Shown: positions 1,728-29,237 of the stretch, piece after piece | How positions within the stretch are numbered: the stretch's first letter is position 1 | How the letters are laid out: the number at the start of each line of letters is the position of its first letter | Source: Muribaculaceae bacterium | GTDB lineage: Bacteria; Bacteroidota; Bacteroidia; Bacteroidales; Muribaculaceae | Assembly: GCA_011959405.1 (NCBI GenBank) | Contig: BLLX01000016.1 | Span: 1-34,798, forward strand | DNA length: 34,798 nt | Direction: 5' to 3' | Made by a program: the position numbers and the translations under genes | Notes under the pieces: generated by a model | What the model was told of the DNA's origin: nothing | The model's database searches: none | What the model saw: only the letters and a program-made list of their open reading frames with translations

Positions 1728-1810
1728 AAATAACCATTTATTTCAATTACCTTTGCAAAGGTAAGTCATTGCTATATACAGCGCAATGATTATAAATAAC
1801 CATTTTATTC
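1726..1810. repeat. Two direct repeats flanking the divergent promoter
   Basis: The 15-mer ATAAATAACCATTTA starts at 1726 and a near-identical copy, ATAAATAACCATTTT, at 1792. Both have the same orientation and bracket the palindrome and both presumed transcription starts. One copy overlaps the start codon of the acetyltransferase gene; the other lies just upstream of the LuxR gene start. Between them is also an inverted pair TCATTGC (1766-1772) / GCAATGA (1783-1789). These are plausible operator sites, but the protein that might bind them is not shown. Confidence 0.5.
1747..1764. promoter_or_regulatory. Perfect 18-bp palindrome holding a -7 box on each strand
   Basis: TTACCTTTGCAAAGGTAA is identical to its own reverse complement. 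Each strand reads TACCTTTG, an exact match to the Bacteroidetes -7 consensus TAnnTTTG (plus strand 1748-1755, minus strand 1763-1756). On the minus strand a TTG (1786-1784) sits 20 nt upstream of the box, the expected -33 spacing, so that direction (acetyltransferase operon) looks the stronger. On the plus strand no TTTG lies at the right distance. RNA polymerase could bind in only one direction at a time. The sequence match is seen directly; promoter activity is inferred. Confidence 0.65.
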
Positions 1811-2739: not shown

Positions 2740-2876
2740 TTACAACCTCATTCCCCGTTTGCGTTTCTTCTTCCTGCGAAGCATCTCTGCCATTTCCTGA
2801 TTGGCTTCCGCATCAGCGGCGTTGTAAGATGAACCGTTGCCGTTCAGCAATCCCAACGAACCGCTGAAGCCGCCAC
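2740..2876 (-). pseudogene. Probable relaxase C-terminal remnant
   Basis: On the minus strand, in a different frame from the integrase remnant, the last 43-45 residues read from GGFSGSLGLLNGNGSS to a highly basic end RRKKKRKRGMRL followed by a stop. A Gly-rich linker followed by an acidic/Glu stretch and a Lys/Arg tail is what I recall at the C-terminus of mobilization relaxases of Bacteroides integrative elements. It has no start of its own: upstream the sequence becomes the integrase N-terminus. The match is from memory of the family's tail, not a conserved catalytic motif, so the identity is tentative. That this is a fragment is more secure than what it is a fragment of. Confidence 0.45.
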
Positions 2877-3302
2877 ATAGTTTCTCGCACGCATCATTAC
2901 CTTGTATGTGCCGATGGTGCGGTCTTTGCCAACACGTTTGAGGAAGTTGGCGCAATCCTTGTCGAACGCCCTGATAAGCGTTTCATACTCGCTGCCGATT
3001 CCCTGATAGGCATTGCGCACCATTTCCGCCGTCACGAACGCCTCTCGGTCGGAAAGTTTCTGGTAGTGCTTGATGATTTGTGCCTTGATGTTGTCAAGGG
3101 CGAGGTTAATGTCCCGTGCCCCCTGGCTCTTGCCTTTCGCCCTGTTCCCTTTCACGTCCCAAAGTGCCTTTGGGATGTTCTGCTTACAACTGAACTGCGC
3201 CACAGTCCCGTTGATTGTCACCCGTCCCATGATGGGGACGATGCCGTTCTTCTCCTTGCTGCCGTTCACGTAGAACAGCACTTTGAATGTACTTCTTGCC
3301 AT
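2844..3302 (-). pseudogene. Truncated tyrosine integrase (N-terminal arm-binding and core-binding part)
   Basis: Starting at the ATG at 3302 (MARSTFKVLFYVNGSKEKNG), about 150 residues match the N-terminus of Bacteroidetes conjugative/mobilizable-element tyrosine recombinases. An arm-binding domain (IMGRVTINGTVAQFSCK, then ALWDVKGNRAKGKSQGA) is followed by the start of the SAM-like core-binding domain (NFLKRVGKDRTIGTYKVMMR ARNYV). The homologous reading stops near 2875; after ten alien residues a stop follows at 2844. Full-length integrases of this family are about 400 residues and carry the R-H-R-Y catalytic residues in the lost C-terminal half, so this copy cannot recombine DNA. The sequence continues in another frame into the relaxase-like tail, so an internal deletion removed most of the element. 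Confidence 0.85.
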
Positions 3303-3320
3303 ACTCGTCTTTTTTGATTG

Positions 3321-3328
3321 CAAAATTA
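3321..3328 (-). promoter_or_regulatory. -7 box of the integrase remnant
   Basis: Read on the minus strand this is TAATTTTG, matching TAnnTTTG, and it lies 18 nt upstream of the integrase ATG at 3302. The promoter may still be active although the gene is broken. Confidence 0.5.
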
Positions 3329-28120: not shown

Positions 28121-29237
28121 ATGATAACTCAGGAACAGCTAAAAGAGACCTTTGAGCGCAAGCTTGCGCTGAGGAGGTATCTTTGACATCGACAACAAGA
28201 AAATTCAAGTAGAGGAAGAAGAACTCCGCACCCACGTGCCCGACTTCTGGGAACACCCCAAAGAAGCTCAGATACAGATGAAGAAGATCAAGGATCTCCA
28301 GGCATGGATCCACGGATATGAAGACGTGGAGAAAGCCGTGGAAGAGCTTGGTCTGTCGTTTGACTTCTACAAAGAGGAACTCGTGACCGAAGAAGAGGTC
28401 GACGCGCTCTATGCCGAAGCCATATCCAAGATCGAAGCCCTGGAGCTGCGCAACATGCTCCGGCGCGAGGAAGACAAGCTCGGAGTAGTGCTGAAAATCA
28501 ACTCTGGAGCCGGCGGCACCGAAAGCCAGGACTGGGCATCCATGCTCATGCGCATGTACCTGCGCTGGGCCGAAAAGAACGGCTACAAGACCTCCATCGC
28601 CAACCTTCTCGACGGCGAGGAAGCAGGCATCAAATCTGTCACCATAAACGTCGAAGGCGACTTTGCCTACGGCTATCTCAAAAGCGAGAACGGCGTGCAC
28701 CGTCTGGTGCGCGTCAGCCCCTATAACGCTCAGGGCAAACGCATGACCTCGTTTGCTTCCGTATTCGTCACCCCGCTGGTCGACGACACCATCGAGGTCA
28801 AGGTCGAGCCGGCGTTGCTGTCGTGGGACACCTTCCGATCCGGAGGTGCCGGCGGACAGAACGTCAACAAGGTGGAATCCGGAGTGCGCCTGCGCTACCA
28901 GTTCACCGACCCCTACACAGGCGAGAAAGAAGAGATCCTAATCGAAAACACCGAAACCCGCGACCAGCCCAAAAACAAAGAAAACGCCCTGCGGCAACTG
29001 CGCTCGATCCTCTACGACAAGGAGCTGCGCCACCGCATGGAGGAACAGGCCAAAGTCGAAGCTTCGAAAATGAAAATCGAATGGGGATCGCAGATACGAA
29101 GCTACGTGTTCGACGACCGCCGTGTCAAAGACCACCGCACAGGCCATCAGACGGCCGACGTGGGCGGAGTCATGGACGGCGACATAGACGGCTTCATCAA
29201 AGCCTTCCTGATGGAATTCGCAGGCAATGAAGAATAA
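28121..29237 (+). CDS. prfB: Peptide chain release factor 2 (programmed +1 frameshift)
   Basis: RF2 of about 371 residues, read in two frames. The first 21 codons (MITQEQLKETFERKLALRRY L) end at an in-frame TGA at 28184-28186. Skipping one base after CTT resumes at GAC (28185) with DIDNKKIQVEEEELRTHVPD and continues to 29237. RF2 releases proteins at UGA and UAA; the catalytic GGQ is at about 244-246 in SGGAGGQNVNKVESG. At the codon-recognition tripeptide this protein reads SPY (199-201) in RVSPYNAQGKRMTSF, where E. coli RF2 has SPF. The N-terminal domain and the rest are normal in length (E. coli 365). The gene lies 86 nt after secG. Confidence 0.96.
28172..28187 (+). promoter_or_regulatory. 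RF2 autoregulatory +1 frameshift site
   Basis: AGGAGGTATCTTTGAC differs in a single base from the E. coli site AGGGGGTATCTTTGAC. It holds the internal Shine-Dalgarno-like AGGAGG, a 3-nt spacer, the slippery CTT and the TGA followed by C. When RF2 is scarce the ribosome pauses at TGA and slips forward, so RF2 controls its own synthesis. Confidence 0.95.

Follow-up and report, generated by a model that had tools for sequence, protein, structure and literature searches.

Why should a perfect palindrome lie between a regulator gene and a divergent operon, and does it act as a promoter for both, as an operator for one, or merely reflect chance? The initial annotation of this locus, in the window (the whole 34,798-bp stretch of DNA analysed here), described the palindrome as two -7 boxes on opposite strands, and the sequence bears this out: positions 1747-1764 are exactly self-complementary, reading TTACCTTTGCAAAGGTAA, and each strand spells TAnnTTTG (TACCTTTG on both + and −). 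The palindrome had also been taken to be the entire 18 bp separating the operon from the LuxR-type gene, a description that does not hold, as the intergenic region is really 86 bp (1728-1813). One box (1748-1755, + strand, a conserved TAnnTTTG) points toward the regulator and lacks a -33 element; the other (1756-1763, − strand, read 1763-1756, conserved as CAAAnnTA) points toward the acetyltransferase/DUF1349/VOC operon, so that the two face each other with a gap of 0. No TAnnTTTG other than these two is present between the genes. Among palindromes of at least 18 bp in the window this is the only perfect one, against 0.15 expected from composition, and it is also the only site in the 2.4 Mb assembly with at most one mismatch (allowing up to two mismatches gives the 1 exact copy and 3 sites with 2 mismatches each). 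Chance is excluded as its origin, both by this expectation and by its recurrence at the same position in more than 100 loci. A second perfect palindrome in the window, AGCGCAAGCTTGCGCT (16 bp, 28155-28170), lies within a possible reading frame and is likely a product of chance.

The two boxes differ in what lies upstream of them. As originally proposed, a well-spaced -33 TTG is found on the minus strand only (CAA on the + strand at 1784-1786), separated from its box by a 20-bp spacer, and the combination of TTG, a spacer of exactly 20 bp and TAnnTTTG on the − strand is present in all 65 non-redundant loci. The σABfr promoters of Bacteroides carry a -33 TTTG and a -7 TAnnTTTG (PMC7366714), and the operon side of the window matches them in both consensus and spacing, having TAnnTTTG with a TTG within the range of about 19-22 bp upstream; spacers of 19-20 are the commonest among generic B. 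fragilis promoters. The window differs from σABfr promoters in that two opposed boxes occupy one and the same set of bases and in lacking a -33 element on the + side. Upstream of the + box, a + strand TTG occurs in only 0-3 of the 65 non-redundant loci at each spacing, with no enrichment at any. The regulator side, with a box and no TTG at 19-22 bp, is thus at most a -33-less promoter and its box could be weak.

The gene pair is of the kind expected to flank a bidirectional promoter. On the + strand, the regulator (1814-2572; Pfam GerE, 2.7e-15) has a PAS-like N-terminal domain and a C-terminal GerE domain, and its top fold match is 3clo (E 3.8e-19), which places it in the PAS-LuxR architecture of that structure; it also resembles the Bacteroides 3CLO regulator (PDB 3CLO, NP_811094.1) in sequence over its full length (E 2.6e-52). 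Neither a DNA site nor a function for the 3CLO regulator was found in the literature searched. The next fold matches are to VqmA, the PAS-LuxR quorum receptor of Vibrio, which likewise combines PAS and GerE domains, but identity is low (9-13%); the likeness is one of architecture and fold and does not imply a shared ligand. On the − strand, the operon begins with a maltose-O-acetyltransferase-like hexapeptide protein (1170-1727; Pfam Mac and Hexapep), followed by a DUF1349 protein (475-1155; Pfam 5e-65) and a VOC/glyoxalase-family protein (86-478; Pfam PF00903, 9e-20). The acetyltransferase had been regarded as the regulator's partner, but in nearly all relatives' loci the divergent partner is DUF1349, the acetyltransferase being optional and present in some. 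TTTGCAAA was found upstream of none of 20 acetyltransferase genes lacking the regulator. We presume that the 3CLO protein may be BT2181, the neighbour of BT2182 in B. thetaiotaomicron. BT2182, a DUF1349 gene, shows a 2.0-fold change in a published iron-response table (PMC10434189). Two minor features of the regulator gene and its surroundings were also observed: one relative (L245, genome G041) carries a single in-frame TAG in the regulator gene, possibly reflecting a pseudogene or recoding, and beside the regulator of the window, at 2740-3323, lies a truncated tyrosine recombinase (an integrase fragment with the arm-DNA-binding domain Pfam PF17293), which suggests a degraded mobile element downstream of the regulator.

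We used homologous loci to examine how far the arrangement is conserved. Intergenic regions were initially collected by searching 393 genomes of the order at the DNA level, and the set was enlarged to 150 distinct loci by scanning species genomes with the regulator alignment and by further genome searches. Rows of the initial conservation alignment had been picked by TTTGCAAA, which makes the fixed core seen there circular; box conservation was instead scored with the CAAT / AATAACCATT element as anchor in place of the palindrome, which avoids this circularity. In the first 81 Bacteroidales loci, an abutting + TAnnTTTG was present in 75 and the − box in 80, compared with a background of 9/8991 for TAnnTTTG at other positions leftward in the same set. 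Among 51 additional loci that were not used to form the pattern, the − box was present in 45 and an exactly abutting + box in 27, and most of those without the latter have a + box a few bp away. Over all 131 distinct Bacteroidales loci, boxes on both strands lie close together, as they do at 1748-1763 in the window: the + box is 0-8 bp from the − box in 123 (123/132 if the same-order locus L132, which lacks a + box, is added), with a gap of 0 in 101. A gap of 5 bp was seen in 15 loci, most of them from one Bacteroides group with large genomes (probably including B. thetaiotaomicron) whose sequence, TATCTTTG-TGGTG-CAAAGATA, keeps both boxes intact, and gaps of 1, 2, 3, 6 and 7 bp were seen in single loci each. 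B. fragilis carries a single copy of the motif, located at the regulator locus. The initial annotation had named a lack of conservation beside homologous gene pairs as refuting; conservation there proved strong, but it attaches to the pair of facing boxes and not, as had been predicted, to the perfect palindrome, since 5-bp gaps occur.

Outside Bacteroidales the picture is different. The + box was present in 0 of 17 well-anchored loci and the − box in 16 of them (this count excludes the same-order L132 and the anchorless L125), and some loci from other orders have a loose TTAnnTTT at the place of the + box, without symmetry. On a tree of 101 regulators, at least four + box changes fall on well-supported branches, indicating that the box was gained or lost more than once. 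In one Flavobacterium succinicans locus (L084), the regulator nests among Bacteroidales sequences, which suggests its transfer between orders, and yet the + box is missing.

These comparisons bear on two readings that would deprive the + box of its role. If the palindrome were an integrase attachment site, or a chance palindrome near a mobile-element remnant, the integrase fragment nearby on the right (2844-3323) would fit, and the attB core of CTnDOT, which we take to be GTANNTTTGC, resembles a palindrome arm. Such a site would not be expected at the same position in more than 100 loci with varying outer flanks, nor at an exact 20-bp spacing from the -33; the attachment site is ruled out by this conservation, and we give the reading as a whole almost no credence. 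It is also conceivable, if rather improbable, that both boxes fire, the + transcript being a by-product that is weak or noncoding, and that the regulator is transcribed mainly from a promoter elsewhere. The lack of a -33 on the + side is compatible with this, and one weak side is common in bidirectional promoters (PMC12825309), but the window offers no alternative + strand TAnnTTTG between the genes, and retention of the + box in 123/131 loci would be unlikely for a by-product.

A more serious alternative, although still an unlikely one, is that the palindrome is a dyad operator, bound by a dimeric repressor or second regulator over the -7 of a single operon promoter, with the + box arising as a by-product of symmetry. 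Several features of the variable nn positions fit such an operator: they are symmetric in 38/65 loci, compared with 22 expected from shuffling, and on each arm their C content exceeds that of the same positions in 95 generic B. fragilis boxes. In addition, one locus (L104) has, upstream of the regulator, a symmetric double change (TACCTTCG|CGAAGGTA) that keeps the symmetry while breaking both boxes. However, the mutual information of mirror columns is no higher than that of non-mirror columns, so the nn symmetry is explained by shared descent. The TA and TTTG positions stay constant, whereas nn differs among loci on either arm and in many loci changes on one side, as expected of a -7 box, and in some other orders the loose TTAnnTTT left arm occurs without any symmetry. 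A dimeric repressor would require a strict dyad with fixed half-site spacing, but the arms are 0 to 7 bp apart, including the 15 loci at 5 bp, most from one Bacteroides group. A 5-bp gap, half a helical turn, would be difficult for a dyad operator to accommodate, whereas two promoter boxes acting independently would tolerate it easily, and the finding that both boxes remain intact at this gap gives the idea of facing promoters good support. Both the group with 5-bp gaps and the mutual information of the mirror columns thus speak against a dyad operator alone, and two promoter boxes are clearly more likely. Nevertheless, both may be true together, the C-rich nn positions and the L104 double change hinting at an extra dyad constraint.

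The region around the two promoter boxes contains further repeats, which agree with the direct and inverted repeats reported initially. Directly upstream of the operon -33 lies a proposed activator operator, TGATTATAAATAACCATTTT (1787-1806; near-invariant columns +32 to +44). Within it, ATTATAAATAACCATTTT is a near-invariant stretch that adjoins the operon TTG at a position fixed across loci, and almost every locus contains AATAACCATT with 0-2 mismatches; judged from this conservation, ATTATAAATAACCATTTT is likely the operator of the regulator. A second, weaker copy (1723-1744) overlaps the place of the absent + strand -33: the two form a 22-nt direct repeat, 86% alike, with starts at 1723 and 1789, and the left copy is present with at most 2 mismatches in 33/65 non-redundant loci, at a fixed position and in the same orientation. 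Both flanking repeats are probably sites for the regulator. An inverted repeat, TCATTGC-N10-GCAATGA (1766-1789), overlaps the -33 with its right arm, and its left arm is partly conserved. If the operon start is taken to be ~4 nt past the box, as inferred from the name -7, the centre of ATTATAAATAACCATTTT falls at about -47, which suits an activator; the same site is also downstream of the regulator's presumed start.

From these box positions, their spacing and conservation and the pairing of the genes, we infer that the palindrome is, with reasonable probability, a bidirectional promoter in which the regulator and target operon sides are mutually exclusive because they share one polymerase site. 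The compact divergent promoter proposed initially is thereby retained in its two facing boxes and their conserved geometry, and not in its emphasis on the palindrome itself, which is the form that such a facing-box promoter takes most often, or in its acetyltransferase partner. Polymerase with the primary sigma factor of Bacteroidota would bind a single stretch of 16-18 bp facing either way, and the melted region and start point belonging to each strand's -7 box would fall inside the opposite strand's box. In the absence of activation, the bare + box would give low synthesis of the regulator. The PAS-LuxR protein, on sensing its signal, would bind ATTATAAATAACCATTTT beside the operon -33 and recruit polymerase in the leftward direction, so that the DUF1349 operon would be switched on, and the leftward polymerase would physically block the regulator's own start, a form of negative feedback to which the left repeat may contribute further repression in loci that have it.

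This arrangement has close counterparts in the bidirectional promoters that Warman, Grainger and colleagues described in E. coli and other prokaryotes (PMC12825309), in which, as in the window, one short symmetric sequence carries a core box on each strand. Those promoters are pseudo-symmetric sequences from which polymerase starts either way, the common distances between starts being 18, 10 and 23 bp, and two polymerases cannot bind together (PMC12825309); by arithmetic, the class with starts 10 bp apart has facing boxes like those of the window. The E. coli cases often separate a regulator gene from its target (soxR/soxS, acrR/acrA), as here, and a factor that activates one direction tends to repress its opposite (PMC12825309). 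Counting against exclusion, the same study found basal activity often too low for competition (PMC12825309). The window differs from the E. coli promoters in using the TAnnTTTG of Bacteroidota and in having two complete 8-bp boxes, abutting or a few bp apart, with no shared -10; its arrangement has been traced across an order, unlike theirs. The locus is probably a bidirectional promoter of this known kind, fitting the sequence part of the definition.

Facing boxes might not be confined to this locus. Pattern searches, together with 400 kb of B. fragilis, were used for genome-wide statistics. In 99 genomes, TAnnTTTGCAAAnnTA occurs 546 times, whereas ATnnTTTGCAAAnnAT occurs 372 times and the reversed pattern 77 times, and the count of TAnnTTTGCAAAnnTA holds some excess because TA is rarer than AT. 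An excess of copies in divergent gaps (11/28, P 0.02-0.06) is suggestive, these figures being soft because crude ORF calls put some known intergenic matches inside ORFs. Other copies between divergent genes (names read from translations) separate sstT from gnd, an AraC-type gene from a hydrolase, a GntR-type gene from a glycosidase and pdxJ from a CBS protein. We tentatively raise the possibility, which remains more doubtful than the reading of the locus itself, that facing -7 boxes are a general and selected switch in Bacteroidota, in which a regulator promoter sits atop its target promoter and target activation shuts off the regulator through nothing more than polymerase exclusion. If so, the present locus would be one case, spanning an order, in which the switch was built in Bacteroidales upon a one-way promoter that already existed. 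The loci compared form an evolutionary series, with a one-way promoter in other orders, abutting boxes in Bacteroidales and, in one Bacteroides group, boxes separated by 5 bp. No report of a bidirectional promoter in Bacteroides was found in the literature searched, such promoters having so far been described mainly in E. coli, and regulation by polymerase exclusion would become testable in tractable gut commensals. The locus also supplies a defined candidate operator for a family of regulators that has a crystal structure but no known DNA site. Finally, in a Bacteroides genome (L142, around 1501), TATGTTTGCAAAAGTA separates an sstT-like gene from a divergent gene for 6-phosphogluconate dehydrogenase, where it is a candidate for a second conserved facing-box promoter, and this 16-mer is also present several times in genome G089 and once in G003.
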